The notes under the pieces were generated by a model, which saw only the letters and a list, made by a program, of their open reading frames with translations, was not told the DNA's origin and made no database searches. Shown piece after piece: positions 3,229 to 9,124 of a DNA stretch of 32,956 nucleotides. The stretch covers positions 1 to 32,956 of the forward strand of contig JAGCFU010000019.1 of assembly GCA_017649945.1 (NCBI GenBank), in the 5' to 3' direction. This DNA comes from Bacteroidales bacterium (GTDB lineage: Bacteria; Bacteroidota; Bacteroidia; Bacteroidales; F082). The translations under genes were made by a program, and so were the position numbers. Numbering within the stretch: position 1 is the stretch's first letter; every line of letters begins with the position of its first letter.

Positions 3229-4260
3229 ATGAAATCTGATCAAAGTAAATTAGAAAAAGTTGATTTTAATGAAAATCACGTTTACAATTCGGTGAGAAGT
3301 TTTGTCGTTGAGGCAAGACGTGAAATCTACAAATCTGTTAACGAGGCTATGGTTTTAGCTTATTGGAACATAGGCAAAACCATCTACGAGGCCTGTGGGG
3401 AATCGGACCGTGCGGCATACGGTCAGCGCATTTTGAATTATATTTCGGATAATTTGACGAAAGAGTTCGGGAGTGGGTTTACAGTAGCTAACTTGCGCAA
3501 TATGAGACAGTTTTATTTGATGTTTCCAAAACGCTACGCACTGCGTAGCGAATTGAGTTGGACGCATTACAGACTATTGATGCGAGTGTCGAATGAAGAT
3601 GCAAGAAACTTTTATGCCAATGAATCTGTAAAATCCGGATGGTCATCGCGGCAACTGGAGCGGCAGATAAATACTATGTATTATCAGCGGATTCTGGCAA
3701 GTCGTGATAAGGACAGTGTAGAGGCTGAGATTCAGAAAACTGAACCTAAACCAGAATATGAGTATATTATCAAAGACCCTTATGTTCTTGAGTTTCTTGA
3801 TTTGCCAAAGAACGAGCATTTTTATGAATCTGATTTGGAACAGGCTTTGATTGACCATTTGCAGAAATTTATGATGGAGATGGGACGTGGATTCTCGTTT
3901 GTAGCACGGCAACAGCATTTTAATGTTGACGGCAGGCATTTTTACATTGACTTGGTTTTTTACAATTACATTTTGAAATGTTTCGTGCTCGTTGATTTGA
4001 AGACTGGCGACCTGACGCACCAGGATCTGGGACAGATGCAGATGTATGTGAATTATTATACTCGTGAGATGATGAACGAAGGCGACAATCCACCGATTGG
4101 ATTGCTGCTATGCGCAACAAAAAGCGACACTTTAGTAAGGATGACATTGCTAGAAGACAATAAACAGATTTATGCTGCGAAATACATGCCGTATTTGCCG
4201 ACGGAGGAGGAATTAAGACGTGAATTGAATTTTGATGGTTTTAAAAAACTGAGTTTGTAG
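3229..4260 (+). CDS. yhcG: YhcG-like DUF1016 protein with PDDEXK nuclease domain
   Basis: 343-aa protein with the two-domain layout of the DUF1016/YhcG family. The N-terminal helical domain (about residues 15-165) carries AYWNIGKTI, YGQRILNYISDNLTKEFG, FTVANLRNMRQFY and LSWTHYRLLMRV. The C-terminal nuclease-like domain (about 185-335) carries IKDPYVLEFLDL, the ALIDHLQKFMMEMGRGFSF helix, and the core IDLVFYN followed by VLVDLKTG, a D...DxK pattern of the PDDEXK fold. Length is normal. Family members are often found as solitary genes or beside restriction-modification loci; here no methylase, specificity or restriction subunit is present, so it stands alone with its own promoter. The substrate is unknown; a DNA-processing or defence role is inference from the fold. 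Codon use is more AT-rich than in hydABC. Confidence 0.9.
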   Translation: MKSDQSKLEKVDFNENHVYNSVRSFVVEARREIYKSVNEAMVLAYWNIGKTIYEACGESDRAAYGQRILNYISDNLTKEFGSGFTVANLRNMRQFYLMFPKRYALRSELSWTHYRLLMRVSNEDARNFYANESVKSGWSSRQLERQINTMYYQRILASRDKDSVEAEIQKTEPKPEYEYIIKDPYVLEFLDLPKNEHFYESDLEQALIDHLQKFMMEMGRGFSFVARQQHFNVDGRHFYIDLVFYNYILKCFVLVDLKTGDLTHQDLGQMQMYVNYYTREMMNEGDNPPIGLLLCATKSDTLVRMTLLEDNKQIYAAKYMPYLPTEEELRRELNFDGFKKLSL

Positions 4261-4300: not shown

Positions 4301-4310
4301 ACTTTTTTTG

Positions 4311-4318
4311 TATCTTTG
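4311..4318 (+). promoter_or_regulatory. -7 promoter box before the leader RNA
   Basis: TATCTTTG with a preceding T-tract and G, followed by CA. A transcript would begin around 4325 and run through about 245 nt of untranslated sequence before the ATG at 4572. Confidence 0.75.
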
Positions 4319-4324
4319 CAGAAA

Positions 4325-4543
4325 ACTTAAACGACATATTATGTAGAAAAAACGACATATTGACATATAAATAGCGGTTCGAAGCTATTCTTGATACCCA
4401 AATTTCCACAAAATCCTGAAAAGGACACACTAATCAAGAATAAGTTTACGAAGCGTCATGTTCGTGGCGTGGAATGACTTGTTGGATTAGTGTGGGCGTG
4501 GAAACCCAGGGTATCAGGCAAGATTTACTTCCACGCCTTTTTT
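4325..4543 (+). ncRNA. Candidate structured leader RNA with two alternative folds
   Basis: The 311-nt gap before the XRE gene is rich in exact complementarity. Fold 1 nests TGATACCC (4392-4399) with GGGTATCA (4509-4516), TTTCCAC (4403-4409) with GTGGAAA (4498-4504), and CACACTAATC (4426-4435) with GATTAGTGTG (4485-4494), enclosing a TCCT-GAAA-AGGA tetraloop hairpin (4414-4425). Fold 2 pairs TATTCTTGAT (4386-4395) with ATCAAGAATA (4433-4442), which breaks fold 1 and frees GGCGTGGAA (4495-4503) to pair with TTCCACGCC (4529-4537) before six T. A hairpin AATAGC/GCTATT (4370-4389), two ACGACATAT copies (4331, 4352) and a complementary ATGTCGT (4544-4550) add structure. This is the layout of an attenuator or riboswitch. 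I do not recognise the class; 6S RNA or another independent ncRNA is an alternative. Confidence 0.6.
4495..4543 (+). terminator. Conditional terminator inside the leader
   Basis: GGCGTGGAA (4495-4503) pairs perfectly with TTCCACGCC (4529-4537), followed by T(6) at 4538-4543, 28 nt before the XRE start. A second GGCGTGGAA at 4466-4474 could pair with the same arm. Its left arm is also used by the competing upstream stem with 4403-4409. Confidence 0.7.
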
Positions 4544-4571
4544 ATGTCGTGTTAACAACCTTTAACGTAGC

Positions 4572-4802
4572 ATGGCAACTAACGAAGCACCACATATCGG
4601 TCACCTCATCAAAGAGGAGCTCGCCCGCCAGGAGCGGACAGTGGCGTGGCTTGCCCGTAAGCTGAACTATTCGAGGCAAAACATCTACCATATTTTTGAA
4701 AGCCAATGGATAACAACCGACGTGTTGCTGAGAATCTGCGATGTGTTGAACTGCAATTTCTACAAAATCTATTCCGACTATTGGGATAACAAAAATGTGT
4801 AA
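4572..4802 (+). CDS. Small XRE-type helix-turn-helix protein
   Basis: 76-aa protein consisting almost entirely of one HTH_3/XRE-like DNA-binding domain. IGHLIKEELARQERTVAWLARKLNYSRQNIYHIFE shows the first helix, then the helix-turn-helix with SRQNIYHIF as the recognition helix, and VLLRICDVLNCNFYKIYSDYW resembles the fourth and fifth helices. No other domain is present. It is the first gene after the structured leader and appears to have its own transcript; the next promoter lies at 4893. Whether it regulates the radical SAM cassette starting 157 nt downstream, or its own leader, cannot be seen. ATG 4572 is the only sensible start. Confidence 0.85.
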   Translation: MATNEAPHIGHLIKEELARQERTVAWLARKLNYSRQNIYHIFESQWITTDVLLRICDVLNCNFYKIYSDYWDNKNV

Positions 4803-4892
4803 AATATCATTTTACGCTTCAGTAAAACATTTATTACACTTCTGACAAATAATCTATTATATGTCAATCTGTTGATTATCAATTGAATATGT

Positions 4893-4900
4893 TAAATTTG
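4893..4900 (+). promoter_or_regulatory. Promoter before the peptide/radical SAM cassette
   Basis: TAAATTTG matches TAnnTTTG, and a TTG at 4872-4874 is about 18 nt upstream, close to the -33 spacing. The peptide start is 59 nt downstream. Confidence 0.6.
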
Positions 4901-4959
4901 CAACGGCAATTAATATTTAAAACCGAAGAGCCTAATGGTATATAACGTGGCATCATATT

Positions 4960-5145
4960 ATGGATAAAGATTCAAAAAAAATTACAACATTTGCACAAGA
5001 AGCTATATTAAAAGGAGCTGAAAAAAAGAAGAATAATAAGTCAAAATTTCAAGATAATAATTGCAGATTTGATGAGACTTATACCCAACAGGATCCTGAT
5101 GATGGCCATTCATATACAGTACATGATCAAGGAGTGGGTTATTGA
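4960..5145 (+). CDS. Candidate ribosomal peptide precursor (61 aa)
   Basis: A 61-aa peptide immediately before a radical SAM/SPASM gene, 33 nt apart and with a promoter upstream. The N-terminal half is lysine-rich and lacks a signal peptide (MDKDSKKITTFAQEAILKG, then a KKKNNK run), as expected of a cytosolic leader. The C-terminal half is acidic and aromatic, with FDETY, DDGHSYTVHDQG and a terminal GY, and has one cysteine (Cys35). I infer that it is the substrate of the downstream enzyme. No family is recognised: it lacks the multiple cysteines of ranthipeptides and has no double-glycine or WxN motif. It might instead be an unrelated small ORF. No protease or exporter gene is nearby. Confidence 0.6.
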   Translation: MDKDSKKITTFAQEAILKGAEKKKNNKSKFQDNNCRFDETYTQQDPDDGHSYTVHDQGVGY

Positions 5146-5178
5146 TTTTTTATTACTATACCATCATAATATTCAACT

Positions 5179-6273
5179 ATGATTGTCATAATTAAACCGA
5201 CATTGGCTTGTAATTTCAGATGCAAGTATTGCTACTTGAGTTCTGAATCTAAAGTAGCAACAACAATGGATTTGGAGTTTGCTAAACAAGTTCTTTTGGA
5301 GGTCAAAGAACAGAATCATTCCGGCCAGAAATTGGAAATTCTTTGGCATGGAGGTGAACCTTTGCTGTGGGGAATTGAGAATTACCGAAACATATTTGAT
5401 TTCATCAACAAGGAGTTTGCTGATGTAAGGTATGCCATCTCCATGCAGACAAATCTGTCTCTTATTACTGATGAGTATATTGATTTGTTTGTAAAACACA
5501 ATGTTAGTGTTGGAATATCATTGGATGGTCCCCAAAACATTAATGATTCTGAGAGAGTTTTCCAAAATGGTAATGGCACTTTCAATTCGGTGATTTCAAA
5601 ACTGAAACTTTGCAGGGAAAAAGGATTAAATACTGGTTGTATTGTGGTTGCCACAAGAAATCATATTGGCAAAATGAGAGAATTGTATGATTTCATGTGC
5701 GACAACATAATTAGTTTCAAGATGAATCCGCTATTTATCTCTGGGGAAGCGATAAAGAACAAAAATGAATTGGGATTATCTATTGATGAGTATGTCGCAA
5801 TGTCAATGGAATTGTTCGATTTGTGGTTTTTTGACGAAAGCAACAAGATTAACAACTCAAAATTCATAGATATTGCCAGCGGTTTGATGACGAGAAAAAT
5901 GTCATTGTGTTCTTTTGGAGAAAACTGCCAAGACCATGTTGTCTGCATTTCCCCGACTGGAGAAGTGCTTCCTTGTGGTCGTTTTTGTGATTCCGATTTA
6001 ATACGGTTTTCATATGGTAATTTGCATACGGAGCATTATAGTGATATTTTGCTAAGAATAAAAGAAAGCAATGCATATAAAAGAGCGGAGTTTATCAAAA
6101 AAAGCAATTGTTCGAAATGCAAATACTTTGAAATTTGTCATGGCGGTTGTTTACATGATGGCTATATCAATTCCAGCACCTTTGAGTCAAAGACATTTAT
6201 GTGTTCAGCAAACAAAAGAATCTTTGCACACATTGAAAAGAGGCTTATAGAAGCAGGTATGATAAGTTTATAA
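5179..6273 (+). CDS. Radical SAM/SPASM peptide-modifying enzyme
   Basis: 364-aa radical SAM enzyme. CNFRCKYC (Cys11, Cys15, Cys18) binds the SAM [4Fe-4S] cluster; WHGGEPLLWG is the glycine-rich SAM-binding strand and GISLDGPQ a later core strand. The C-terminal SPASM domain holds auxiliary-cluster cysteines: CISPTGEVLPC, CGRFC, CSKCKYFEICHGGC and a final MC. The set resembles anaerobic sulfatase maturases and RiPP maturases. The protein starts directly at the core barrel, so it has no N-terminal RRE domain. With a 61-aa ORF 33 nt upstream and no sulfatase nearby, peptide maturation (crosslink or epimerisation; which one is unknown) is the favoured inference. Codon use is AT-rich compared with flanking housekeeping genes, suggesting transfer. 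The two secreted-protein genes downstream probably share the transcript. Confidence 0.9.
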   Translation: MIVIIKPTLACNFRCKYCYLSSESKVATTMDLEFAKQVLLEVKEQNHSGQKLEILWHGGEPLLWGIENYRNIFDFINKEFADVRYAISMQTNLSLITDEYIDLFVKHNVSVGISLDGPQNINDSERVFQNGNGTFNSVISKLKLCREKGLNTGCIVVATRNHIGKMRELYDFMCDNIISFKMNPLFISGEAIKNKNELGLSIDEYVAMSMELFDLWFFDESNKINNSKFIDIASGLMTRKMSLCSFGENCQDHVVCISPTGEVLPCGRFCDSDLIRFSYGNLHTEHYSDILLRIKESNAYKRAEFIKKSNCSKCKYFEICHGGCLHDGYINSSTFESKTFMCSANKRIFAHIEKRLIEAGMISL

Positions 6274-6334
6274 ATAAAAGACAACAATAATGATAATTAA
6301 CAAATGTAATAATAACAATTAAAATCTAAACAAA

Positions 6335-7117
6335 ATGAAAAGAGTACTTTTAACGACAGCACTATCTTTGATAATATCAATGAGTATTTATGCACAAAAA
6401 ATAGACGAGTGGAAGAAACCACCTAAAGCTTCTGAAAAAGAAATAGGAATTGTCAACGTTCATATACAAACAGGCCAAGCTGCATATAAAGGAATTACTG
6501 AGATTGAGAGTAAGAGAGGAGATAAATTGTCAGATGAGGAATTATATAAAAGATTGCTTGAAAAAGCAAAGGATAAGTATGGGAATGCTTATCCAGATCT
6601 TGAATTAAGAAGTTTTAAATCTAATCATTATTCAAAATTAGAGTACGTTAATGATTATGACAAAAATTGGAAAGTTATAGGTAAAATACAAGCATGTTAT
6701 GATTTTTCTGATGGATCTGCAATGGTGGTTCTTCCAGATCCGCAAATAAAAATAGATAAAAAATTAACACAAGCCATAACAAAAGCATTGCAAAATATTA
6801 TAGAAGGTTCCAGATTATCTCTTGATCAAATTAGGACAATAAATGAAGACAAAGAAGATTTTAAAGACAAAGTTGTTGAGATTTTGTTGGATGAAGGCTT
6901 TAAAGTTGTTGCCAAAGATTATCTTGAAAAATTGTATGAAGAGCAACGGGCTCAACAAAGCGGTATTTATAATAACAGAACCACTGTCCAAGAAAATAAT
7001 TTTTCAGCAGTCGGTTATTATATAAATGTTAAGCAGTCAGAGGAATCCATAAAGGTTCAAGTTATTAATGTAAGTACAGGTGAATATGAATCAAATGTAA
7101 CAGTAGCTTTAAATTAA
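6335..7117 (+). CDS. Secreted protein with CsgG/FlgO-like C-terminal half, copy 1
   Basis: 260-aa protein with a signal peptide (MKRVLLTTALSLIISMSIYAQ) and predicted periplasmic or surface location. The first ~130 mature residues are not recognised. The C-terminal part (about 150-260) contains EGFKVVAKDYLEKLYEEQRAQ and QQSGIYNN, followed by VGYYINVK and VQVINVSTGEY. This recalls the 'xVVxRxxLxxLLxEQxxQxSG' stretch of CsgG/FlgO/LpoB-like outer-membrane-associated proteins, although overall similarity is modest. It is a paralogue of the next gene, 4 nt downstream. It lies 61 nt after the radical SAM gene with no visible promoter between, so it is likely in the same operon. It is strongly AT-rich in codon use. 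The function is unknown. Confidence 0.8.
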   Translation: MKRVLLTTALSLIISMSIYAQKIDEWKKPPKASEKEIGIVNVHIQTGQAAYKGITEIESKRGDKLSDEELYKRLLEKAKDKYGNAYPDLELRSFKSNHYSKLEYVNDYDKNWKVIGKIQACYDFSDGSAMVVLPDPQIKIDKKLTQAITKALQNIIEGSRLSLDQIRTINEDKEDFKDKVVEILLDEGFKVVAKDYLEKLYEEQRAQQSGIYNNRTTVQENNFSAVGYYINVKQSEESIKVQVINVSTGEYESNVTVALN

Positions 7118-7121
7118 AACT

Positions 7122-7814
7122 ATGAAAAACATTAATATTCTAACAAAATTAACACTTTTTGTTGCCATACTATTAATATGTGTCGGCAACGTCTATGCTC
7201 AAGACCACAGCAAAGCTAAAAAGCATCCGTCAAAGACGGAGGTTGTTTTAAGCACAAATCTTCAGACAAGCAAAGGTTACGATTCGGAGCAGGCGGCATA
7301 CAAAGCGGCATTGCGAGAGGCGCAACGCGCATATCCGGAGATGAATGTGGAAATAAGAGACATGAGACAAGGCGATTTGAAGGTTAACCAAGGCGGTTCG
7401 GTATCATATTGCTACAGATACACTATTGTGGAGGTGCCGAGTGTCTTGTCGAAAAAACTGTACGATGCCATCACAAAAGCAACAAAGGATATTGAAGAAG
7501 GCAACCGTTTCGCTTTGGATAACATTTCTGTTAAGGACGACAACGTCGATAAAGAGAAAACCAAAGGCGAAATTGTGGATTTGCTTTTGAAAAAAGGCTA
7601 CAAAGTGGTGGCTAAAGAGCATCTTGCAAAGCTTTACAAAGAGCAGCAAGGTCAGCAGAGCGGCATCTACAACGAGGAAACCATAGTCGAGAGCAACAAA
7701 TTTACAGCAGTCGGCTATTACCTCAATGTTCGCATCACCGAGGAGTATGTCCAAGTGCAAGTCGTCAACGTCAGCACTGGCGAGTTTGAAGGGAATGTGA
7801 CAGAGAATCTTTAG
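7122..7814 (+). CDS. Secreted protein with CsgG/FlgO-like C-terminal half, copy 2
   Basis: 230-aa paralogue of the preceding gene with a signal peptide ending near NVYAQ. It shares KKLYDAITKATKDIEEGNR, KGYKVVAKEHLAKLYKEQ, QQSGIYNEE, TAVGYYLNVR and VQVVNVSTGEFEGNVTE with copy 1. The N-terminal mature part contains DSEQAAYKAALREAQRAYP, a helix also weakly visible in copy 1. It starts 4 nt after the stop of copy 1, so the two are co-translated in effect. Its codons are clearly richer in G and C than those of copy 1, which is odd for adjacent duplicates. It ends at a shared bidirectional hairpin. No enzymatic motif is visible. Confidence 0.8.
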   Translation: MKNINILTKLTLFVAILLICVGNVYAQDHSKAKKHPSKTEVVLSTNLQTSKGYDSEQAAYKAALREAQRAYPEMNVEIRDMRQGDLKVNQGGSVSYCYRYTIVEVPSVLSKKLYDAITKATKDIEEGNRFALDNISVKDDNVDKEKTKGEIVDLLLKKGYKVVAKEHLAKLYKEQQGQQSGIYNEETIVESNKFTAVGYYLNVRITEEYVQVQVVNVSTGEFEGNVTENL

Positions 7815-7836
7815 GCTTTTGAAGTTTGAACTTAAT

Positions 7837-7884
7837 CAATATTCCAATATGGAAAAATATTCAAAAAACCATATTGGAATATTG
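7837..7884. repeat. 48-bp palindromic repeat, copy 1, also a bidirectional terminator
   Basis: Arms 7834-7852 and 7869-7887 are perfectly complementary over 19 bp with an A-rich 16-nt loop. The 48 bp at 7837-7884 align without gaps to the 48 bp at 9125-9172 on the other side of the ATPase gene. It lies between convergent genes, so it probably ends both transcripts. Confidence 0.85.
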
Positions 7885-7886
7885 AT

Positions 7887-9089
7887 TTAATACAGAAATC
7901 CGAACAACCACAGAGGAATCTTGTTGCCTCGGCCGAATTCGACATCATCGATGGCCAAATAACTGTCGGGAATGCCCTTGATTTGCTCGAACGATTTGTC
8001 GGCACCGCCAACTTCGATGGTGTATTTGCCGTCAATCAGGAAGTCGCCTTTTTTAACAGAGTTTAATTCATGCGTTATGCCTATCTGGTTGTTGAAGAAA
8101 GTCTCCCTTATTGTTCCAATTTCAGGGAAACGGTTGTAGGCGTACATGAGGTTTGTGTTGTTGAGGAACAATTTGTCGGGTGCCGACATCTGTTTAATAG
8201 CTTTCGTGCGGTTCTTGAGCTGGCTCAATAATGCGCCTTTTTCCAATAAATCCAACAATTTCAAACCTTGCTCACGACTCGTCTCAAGTTGTCCGTACAA
8301 ATCTTCCATTTTGGGAACGAAAGGCACTTGTAATGCAATGATTCCCAATAGTTTTTTGAGCTTTTGAACGGTTGCAAACTCTACATTTTCAACTGCAGGT
8401 ATATCCATTTCGATTGTCTGTTGCACAACTTCAAGGAGTTTTGCATGAAAACCATCCAAATCCTCTTTGTAGAAAGGATAATATCCATATTTGCAATAGT
8501 TTTCAAAATAAGGAAGAATATGGATTTTGTCAGCGATTTCTGTTGCAATCTGAATGTGGTTTTTTAGAATGTCATCAAGTGACAATTTGTCAAATTGCAA
8601 GGCGTTTTCGAACATAAGATATTCGCGGAATGACAATCCGTTCATGGTGTACATGGCAACTCTGCGCGACAAGTCTCCTTCGCCTTTGTCAAGTTTAAGC
8701 ATTGAGCTGCCTGTAAAAACGACATTCATCGTAGGGTAGTCGTCGTAAATGTTCTTGATATATGTCTGCCAATGCTCGTATTTGTGAACCTCATCCAAAA
8801 ACAAATGTGTTCCGCCATGAGTGTAATGGTATTCCACAAGGTCGGCAAGGCTGTTATTGGCAAACCACATGTTGTCCAACGACACATACAAAACTTTGCT
8901 GTCGTCGGGAAACGTTTCTTTGATATGCTGCTTCAGCAATGTCGATTTCCCTACACCTTTAGGTCCTTTTATGCCGATAATTCTGGCGTTCCAGTTGATG
9001 GTGCTGTGCAAGTTTCTCTTAAAATCCATGCTCACCTGCGAAACGTTGCGGTGTGAGTTGCGATACAAAATTTCAGGATTGACACTCAT
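7887..9089 (-). CDS. AAA-family ATPase with DUF4143-like C-terminus
   Basis: 400-aa P-loop protein of the AAA_14/DUF4143 group common in Bacteroidota. Walker A is GPKGVGKSTLLKQ, Walker B is HLFLDEVHKYEHW, and VVFTGSSML is a sensor-1-like strand. The C-terminal half has the DUF4143 features: LLDLLEKGALLSQL, KLFLNNTNLMYA, RETFFNNQI and a terminal nuclease-like strand pair (GDFLIDGKYTIEVGG). I chose the ATG at 9089 because the promoter box at 9112-9119 would start transcription downstream of the more distal in-frame ATG at 9122. The cellular role of the family is unsettled. The gene stands alone between two related 48-bp palindromes, which suggests a cassette or autoregulation. Confidence 0.9.
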   Translation of the reverse strand: MSVNPEILYRNSHRNVSQVSMDFKRNLHSTINWNARIIGIKGPKGVGKSTLLKQHIKETFPDDSKVLYVSLDNMWFANNSLADLVEYHYTHGGTHLFLDEVHKYEHWQTYIKNIYDDYPTMNVVFTGSSMLKLDKGEGDLSRRVAMYTMNGLSFREYLMFENALQFDKLSLDDILKNHIQIATEIADKIHILPYFENYCKYGYYPFYKEDLDGFHAKLLEVVQQTIEMDIPAVENVEFATVQKLKKLLGIIALQVPFVPKMEDLYGQLETSREQGLKLLDLLEKGALLSQLKNRTKAIKQMSAPDKLFLNNTNLMYAYNRFPEIGTIRETFFNNQIGITHELNSVKKGDFLIDGKYTIEVGGADKSFEQIKGIPDSYLAIDDVEFGRGNKIPLWLFGFLY

Positions 9090-9111
9090 ATTAACTTGTG
9101 TTTTTACGCTG

Positions 9112-9119
9112 CAAAGATA
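9112..9119 (-). promoter_or_regulatory. Minus-strand -7 box for the ATPase gene
   Basis: TATCTTTG on the minus strand, preceded by a T-run and G (TTTTG). It lies about 22 nt upstream of the ATG at 9089. The adjacent palindrome at 9125-9172 covers the -33 region. Confidence 0.75.
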
Positions 9120-9124
9120 CAAAA

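Follow-up and report, generated by a model that had tools for sequence, protein, structure and literature searches.

A probable multi-cyclophane peptide family of Bacteroidales, found here in a locus of mosaic structure

Introduction

What is the task of a 61-amino-acid (aa) peptide encoded just ahead of a radical S-adenosylmethionine (SAM)/SPASM enzyme and two exported proteins? This question is raised by a stretch of 32,956 nucleotides (nt) from a Bacteroidales bacterium (contig JAGCFU010000019.1, assembly GCA_017649945.1), the whole of which is called the window hereafter. A first-pass annotation of the window had set positions 4893 to 7814 apart as a possible cassette for a ribosomally synthesized and post-translationally modified peptide (RiPP). 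Our analysis suggests, with a probability of about 0.7, that the peptide belongs to a new Bacteroidales family of multi-cyclophane RiPPs, carried here as cargo of a modular locus. The argument starts from three features:

4960 to 5145, forward strand: predicted RiPP precursor peptide, 61 aa (leader approx. residues 1–29, core approx. residues 30–61, the boundary being assumed).

5047 to 5142, forward strand: core region with candidate i/i+2 crosslink sites FQD, FDE, YTQ, HSY and HDQ, proposed from motif statistics.

5179 to 6273, forward strand: putative radical SAM/SPASM peptide maturase, 364 aa (Pfam and NCBIfam matches, tree, PDB match).

The peptide and its enzyme

The coordinates of the open reading frames (ORFs) of the peptide, the enzyme and the two exported paralogues (here s1 and s2) agree with those annotated first. 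The enzyme was sought in 173 genomes of the family survey (E ≤ 1e-50), where it was found in seven, at eight loci all of one genus, and in 393 genomes of the order survey (E ≤ 1e-60), where five gave a match, the window's own genome included. A collection of named genomes yielded 386 enzyme relatives; among the matches listed (80), at least 29 belong to the window's peptide family (48–78% enzyme identity), many of them from ruminants and all but one labelled Bacteroidota, the exception being a metagenome-assembled genome labelled Christensenellaceae. Together with L046, L047 and the window, these 29 form a family set of 32 loci, 31 of them testable since L072 is cut at the contig start; L045, which looks like locus L069, was left out of the counts. 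Among the other 51 listed relatives (≤36% identity) 12 were inspected for peptides: the leader motif was sought in seven, with one chance match (L085), and HSY or WNW in six, L098 being in both sets.

The first-pass annotation had named homologous loci that keep the enzyme and lack the peptide as grounds for refutation; this check did not refute it, as a small peptide ORF on the same strand lies upstream of the enzyme in all 31 testable loci. A hidden Markov model (HMM) of the leader, trained on peptides chosen by eye and applied with each locus and its near copies held out, ranked the precursor first in 31 of 31 and gave E < 0.01 in 30, the exception being L055 (0.15). Trained on the other loci, it placed the window peptide first among the 378 ORFs of the window (E 7.8e-9, the next being 1.5). 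This constant position and the 30 significant leader matches lead us to regard the 61-aa peptide as a real gene. Over the 52 codons compared with L074, the nearest relative (enzyme identity 78%), base differences number 5, 4 and 24 by codon position, i.e. 24 of 33 fall in third positions. The leader consensus in the alignment is roughly T-[FYWH]-A-Q-x-x-I...K, and six loci (L048, L050, L057, L066, L073 and, weakest, L118) have a second candidate precursor. A plain sequence search with the peptide returned almost nothing from the 173 genomes (best other match, E 0.005), and nothing better than E 0.12 was found in NCBIfam or Pfam; the kinship of the peptide is read from its leader and position rather than from a plain sequence match.

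A conserved leader, a variable core and a modifying enzyme alongside, by which RiPPs are recognized, occur together in 31/31 testable loci, and the peptide and the radical SAM/SPASM enzyme almost certainly form a pair. That the peptide works on its own as a small regulator or antitoxin, with the enzyme acting on another protein in the manner of an anaerobic sulfatase maturase, is most improbable. The enzyme is related to anaerobic sulfatase-maturating enzymes (NCBIfam E 9e-56; PDB 4k37, E 4.5e-38), but the constant co-occurrence and the variable Tyr/Asp-rich tail of the peptide argue against such independence, as does the lack of a sulfatase among the seven window proteins scanned, the search having stopped short of farther genes.

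The enzyme carries a CNFRCKYC motif and the Pfam domains Radical_SAM (PF04055, E 1.4e-18) and SPASM (PF13186, 22.7 bits for a cut-off of 21.5), both above their gathering scores. A tree of 56 rows was made by a quick method, with the Shimodaira–Hasegawa-like approximate likelihood ratio test (SH-aLRT) as sole support; many distant matches were excluded, as were L065, L068, L072 and L118, which are frameshifted or cut. The family stands here as a clade (SH-aLRT 98; 92 when L047 is included) apart from the dynobactin group (99), and the window and L074 fall together with L049, L052 and L062 (98). A membrane protein is encoded directly before the enzyme in 25 of the 33 clustered loci, and these five are without it. 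The enzyme matches eight distant loci of a viral collection (identity ≤34%), and its own genome holds a second radical SAM match of 24% identity. In PADLOC it matches viperin models only (1.5e-13), and the peptide, s1 and s2 have no match there.

Several neighbours of the enzyme in other loci may be mentioned here. A gene of the AbiGi family (PF10899, a putative abortive-infection component) stands directly behind it in L049 (E 4e-32) and L062 (2e-34). In 12 loci (L050, L054, L056–L061, L063, L067, L073 and L081), the unit is accompanied by surface lipoproteins that contain repeat domains; weak matches to CarboxypepD_reg and fn3 were obtained for the one that was scanned. Genes resembling, by eye, neighbours in contig C38 of the window's own genome flank the unit in L053 and L055.

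Core motifs and probable chemistry

The precursor cores number 37, reduced to 27 by a redundancy filter and to 12 that are strictly different. Among the 27, Asp or Glu stands at position i+2 of an aromatic residue in 138 of 200 cases, versus 31% in shuffles (z = 14.2); among the 12, in 56 of 82 (z = 8.9). Offset −1 shows enrichment too (z = 6.8), which DYxDYx repeats would produce, offsets −4 and −2 lie slightly above shuffles (z = 1.8 and 1.4, respectively), and the remaining offsets are depleted. Each core holds from 2 to 10 aromatic-X-D/E motifs, and FQD is present in 18 of 37 precursors. The window core, with the triplets FQD, FDE, YTQ, HSY, YTV and HDQ, is atypical; its HSY is shared with the dynobactin precursors in L091, L092 and L095 (...PSWNSNVHSYRF).

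The first-pass annotation knew of no precursor class that the peptide would fit. This view has to be given up, as the family follows the aromatic-X-acidic motif and fits, on its motifs, the triceptide-like (YxD-type) class. Indeed, the radical SAM and SPASM domains expected of a triceptide enzyme are present, and an aromatic residue at i with its partner at i+2 is seen family-wide. According to extracts of a review (PMC11002830), YxdB is reported to join Tyr C3 to Asp C-beta, and in the HSY of dynobactin a C–N bond joins Tyr and His. We consider it probable that the enzyme installs cyclophanes in the peptide core. Modification by another reaction (a thioether at C35, oxidation or decarboxylation of Asp/Glu, epimerization, or solely a dynobactin-type His–Tyr C–N link) seems unlikely: SPASM enzymes are chemically diverse according to the same extracts (PMC11002830), and the window core does hold C35 and an HSY like that of the dynobactin core ...WNSNVHSYRF, but the i/i+2 aromatic–acid rule dominates the family, and 23 of the 37 cores are free from Cys.

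Similarly improbable, on our estimate, is a metal-binding product, in which crosslinks would rigidify a Cys/His/Asp site and s1 and s2 would take part in uptake or storage. His occurs in 29 and Cys in 14 of the 37 cores, the window core has C35, H50 and H55 besides acidic residues, and one variant, NDCHGDYYD, a possible metal site, is identical in 11 of 37 cores (L053, L054, L055, L061, L064, L065, L068, L069, L070, L071 and L046), whose loci are labelled as several families. However, eight cores have neither Cys nor His, and the annotated minority of neighbour genes gives no hint of metal handling.

The exported pair

Behind the enzyme lie two further genes:

6335 to 7117, forward strand: exported protein s1 (signal peptide; hypervariable N-domain, approx. 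6398–6754; conserved C-domain, approx. 6782–7114).

7122 to 7814, forward strand: exported protein s2 (signal peptide, small N-domain, C-domain of the LpoB/PelC/CsgG type).

Judged by eye, both have Sec-type signal peptides that end in ...YAQ and are without a canonical lipobox. The mean pairwise identity of s1 is 27% over residues 37–136 versus 71% over residues 156–260 (55 pairs). In a structural model, the C-domain of s2 adopts an alpha/beta LpoB/PelC fold, nearest to LpoB, then to CsgG and PelC, with no evident barrel hairpin, though residues 181–194 have a predicted local distance difference test score below 50. For CsgG (PF03783, gathering score 20.8), s1 of the window reaches 12.2 bits, s2 gives no match at E ≤ 1, and the s2 relative in L074 scores 22.3 bits. 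Of the earlier description as secreted CsgG/FlgO-like paralogues, predicted secretion is retained and the label is corrected for the C-domain of s2, LpoB being the nearest fold. Relatives of s2 occur in 12 of the 173 family genomes, all of the window's genus (best, 90% identity in G076), and in six of the 393 order genomes (E ≤ 1e-6); the viral collection holds no match. That the 3′ end of s2 might be a dispersed repeat of its own genome was rejected, as only itself and a 15-base match were found.

The pairing of a radical SAM gene with such secreted proteins, unfamiliar to the first-pass annotation, does recur. The s1–s2 pair is found in 11 loci (window, L074, L148–L155 and L170), and in seven it stands behind a radical SAM unit, with a complete gene in six and a 3′ end at the contig edge in one (L155). 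A window-type unit precedes it in the window and L074; a peptide of the Cys-every-fifth type with a CefB-related enzyme in L151 and L152, L155 showing the 3′ end of the enzyme only; and a unit made up of a Cys-cluster peptide, a GeoRSP-related enzyme and a membrane protein in L153 and L170. Among 98 same-genus genomes, the CefB-related enzyme occurs in four; s1/s2 accompany it in G061 and G106 and probably in G132 (on two contigs), but not in G119. The GeoRSP-related enzyme occurs in two of the 98, one with s1/s2 and one with a remnant of the s2 3′ end. In L171, a Cys-cluster unit is followed by a CsgG-domain protein (23.8 bits for a cut-off of 20.8) and a piece of the s2 3′ end. The Cys-cluster unit of G112 includes a 1004-aa protein resembling, by eye, the repeat-domain lipoproteins described above.

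A CsgG-like HMM, trained partly on the very loci that it then matches and so partly circular, places other CsgG-like genes at most 3 kb from the enzyme in 8 of the 32 family loci, versus none in 169 kb of far flank and none in 633 kb of controls; a search with the same alignment gave any match in 30 of 80 family genomes. In the open-licence literature, by title and abstract, we found nothing describing the peptide family or a radical SAM–LpoB/CsgG pairing.

Mosaic structure of the locus

Comparison with relatives brings in features on either side of these genes:

4371 to 4546, forward strand: conserved structured RNA, six helices followed by a possible terminator (covariation, model R1).

4572 to 4802, forward strand: small Cro/C1-type helix-turn-helix (HTH) protein, 76 aa, a likely regulator (Pfam HTH_26, E 1.9e-6).

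4872 to 4900, forward strand: match to a Bacteroidota-type promoter, TTG-N18-TAAATTTG.

7834 to 7887, forward strand: perfect 19-bp inverted repeat 3′ of s2, a possible terminator (arms 7834–7852 and 7869–7887, by eye).

The window is 86% identical to L181 from 3200, where the query starts, to 4547, with a break where the RNA ends; 83% identical to L179 over 4309–4815, with a break just 3′ of the HTH gene; and 85% identical to L148 from 6782, inside s1, to 7813, with 94–100% over 7300–7650. Cargo exchange is the simplest reading of these breaks, which support the earlier suggestion that the block was acquired. Since relatives carry other kinds of modified peptide before the same exported pair, the block looks like one unit of an exchangeable system. 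The low GC content from which acquisition had been argued holds for the peptide, the enzyme and s1 (0.31, 0.35 and 0.31, respectively, versus 0.45 for the window) and fails for s2 (0.43). The genes of the proposed unit are separated by 33 nt (peptide–enzyme), 61 nt (enzyme–s1) and 4 nt (s1–s2); they stand as annotated, but the unit extends beyond 4893, upstream to the HTH gene and the structured RNA.

Isolated 3′ ends of s2 (approx. 20–70 codons) lie beside other cargo in L156, L157, L158 and L171, and L152 and L155 each have one in addition to the full gene; this end behaves as if it were a fixed recombination boundary. In L155, a small gene pair, its second member ParE/RelE-like by eye, sits between s2 and the second s2 3′ end.

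The RNA fold, derived from seven copies, has 41 pairs, 14 of them with compensatory double changes. Alignment cells are paired at 98.9%, versus 88.6% in shuffles and 35–42% in slid versions; the covariation score was reached by 0 of 500 shuffles, and the number of further pair types by 15 of 500. Model R1, built from the window copy and six others, gives the window RNA 173.8 bits, and Rfam 15 offered weak matches below gathering scores only. In the terminator region, TTCCACGCC can pair with either of two copies of GGCGTGGAA (by eye). With R1 (E ≤ 0.001), the RNA was detected in 78 of 95 same-genus genomes, in up to 13 copies each and sometimes in tandem on a contig; it is a second target of study by itself. 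An HTH gene follows closely in 24 of the 30 best RNA loci, six of these loci being copies from which R1 was built; the distance is often approximately 25–35 nt, and the cargo differs. Among the s1/s2 loci, the RNA match is strong in the window, L151, L152 and L153, weak in L149, L154 and L150, not significant in L148 and absent from L170 and L074. As cargo behind the RNA and HTH gene, L195, L196, L198 and L200 carry a Cys-rich peptide whose start looks Tat-like by eye, the copy in L195 resembling the TIGR04117 Cys-Xaa-Xaa-Xaa repeat radical SAM target (E 3.6e-11, below cut-off).

The first-pass annotation had placed a promoter upstream of the peptide, and a site matching TTG-N18-TAAATTTG, which we take to be the Bacteroidota-type consensus, does end 59 nt 5′ of the peptide ORF. 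Such a match arises in 14 of 2000 mononucleotide shuffles of 4803–4959, and the window holds three forward and four reverse matches. In L179, a similar site stands behind a related HTH gene with different cargo downstream (by eye). Flanking the locus are two PADLOC defence candidates, a YhcG/DUF1016 nuclease (3229–4260; PDC-S02, E 1e-142) and an AAA_14 ATPase (7887–9122; PDC-S01, E 5e-25).

Proposed mode of action

We infer the following course of events. The conserved N-terminal leader (T-F-A-Q-x-A-I-...-K) would recruit the radical SAM/SPASM enzyme, which would join an aromatic side chain (Phe, Tyr, Trp or His) to residue i+2, usually Asp or Glu, producing a chain of three-residue cyclophanes; the candidate rings in the window are F30–D32, F37–E39, Y41–Q43 and H55–Q57, possibly with H50–Y52 as in dynobactin. 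The matured peptide may then act at the cell envelope together with s1 and s2, whose common C-domain, LpoB/PelC-like, would serve for docking, and the variable N-domain of s1 would recognize the particular peptide, whether as cargo, receptor or immunity protein. The RNA and the HTH protein encoded upstream probably control expression in the window. As to the role, an envelope-directed interaction between bacteria is the likeliest of those considered, albeit put forward tentatively, metal binding coming next.

Several observations weigh against parts of this proposal. For the chemistry, the nearest NCBIfam model of the enzyme is DynA (NF041298, E 1e-82, 277.9 bits for a cut-off of 450), and the window core has strict aromatic-X-D/E motifs in two of six triplets, L074 having four of six. 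As annotated earlier, the four proteins gave no RiPP recognition element (RRE), transporter or protease when scanned with Pfam and NCBIfam, the RRE not having been sought by structure; neither an exporter nor a leader protease was found. For the exported pair, the 3.5 kb upstream contain no radical SAM gene in L148, L149, L150 and L154 (4 of 11 pairs), s1/s2 adjoin only the window's copy among the eight same-genus loci of its enzyme, and the N-domains of s1 do not fall into clean groups by RiPP class. For the locus, the RNA is present in 4 of 27 loci of the peptide family (window, L048, L065 and L066), and in L074, with filters off, its best match is 11.5 bits on the wrong strand. Accordingly, the RNA–HTH module belongs to the window's locus and genus rather than to the peptide family.

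The points on the exported pair, together with the s2 remnants adjoining other cargo, are what would be expected if s1 and s2 were unrelated neighbours, beside which an exchange hotspot places RiPP units with no shared function. We nevertheless hold this to be the less likely case, because three unrelated radical SAM types occupy the same slot and because, partly circular as the HMM is, CsgG-like genes lie close to the enzyme and not in far flanks or controls. On balance, s1/s2 are somewhat more likely than not to be functionally linked with the peptide. More tentative is a modular peptide-exchange locus, bounded on the left by the RNA and HTH gene and on the right by the s2 3′ end, in which RiPP units would be exchanged jointly with the recognition domain at the N-terminus of s1; it is equally speculative that the swapped units are chemically unrelated radical-SAM-modified peptides (poly-cyclophane, Cys-every-fifth and Cys-cluster). 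The absence of the RNA from L074 and from 23 of 27 family loci weakens this exchange reading.

In any case, the locus provides a testable family of probable multi-ring peptides from gut Bacteroidales that are mostly uncultured; a single peptide has up to 10 candidate ring motifs. It also connects one exported protein pair with three radical SAM peptide classes that are unrelated to each other. Should this partnership prove real, it would indicate an envelope route or target shared by RiPPs that have no dedicated transporters nearby. If the exchange locus is real too, it would be the RiPP counterpart of polymorphic competition systems, with constant envelope machinery and interchangeable modified peptides.

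Comparison with known systems

The C-domain of s2 is predicted to share the fold of the periplasmic domains of LpoB, PelC, CsgG and FlgT, from which s2 differs by its extra N-domain as well as in having no canonical lipobox and, in the model, no evident barrel hairpin. The CefB, GeoRSP and TIGR04117 Cys-rich systems have related enzymes or peptides in the slot before s1/s2 or behind the RNA and HTH gene. The CefB- and GeoRSP-related units, however, have other precursors, and their enzymes share 23–27% identity with that of the window over the aligned part; these enzymes score far below the respective cut-offs, so that the names are labels of convenience.

AmcA/AmcB (NF041718/NF041721), by model name, place several cyclophanes in one peptide, and the enzyme is related (E 5e-43); the AmcA model is unmatched by the four family peptides scanned (the window's and three relatives) and weakly matched by the Cys-every-fifth peptide of L152 (E 0.018, below cut-off). 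Dynobactin and darobactin (DynA, DarE) are close in that DynA is the nearest NCBIfam model and HSY occurs in both dynobactin and window cores. Nevertheless, the window's family forms a separate clade, with 30–31% identity to the Photorhabdus enzymes and a score below the DynA cut-off; its precursor lies upstream of the enzyme, that of dynobactin downstream; and of the W-x-x-N and H-S-Y that mark a dynobactin core, the window has HSY without W-x-x-N.

The closest likeness in motif is to the YxD-type triceptides (YxdB; also XncB, OscB, YhhB and HaaB), which like the window combine a radical SAM/SPASM enzyme with a short precursor and an aromatic-X-Asp motif, and from which the family differs by its Bacteroidales clade, its up to 10 motifs per core and its LpoB/PelC-like partners. 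YxdB (WP_226048651.1) was compared by description only, and the window's family could turn out to hold it. The exchange locus, if confirmed, would be new in kind; the chemistry itself would be a variation on that of a known kind.

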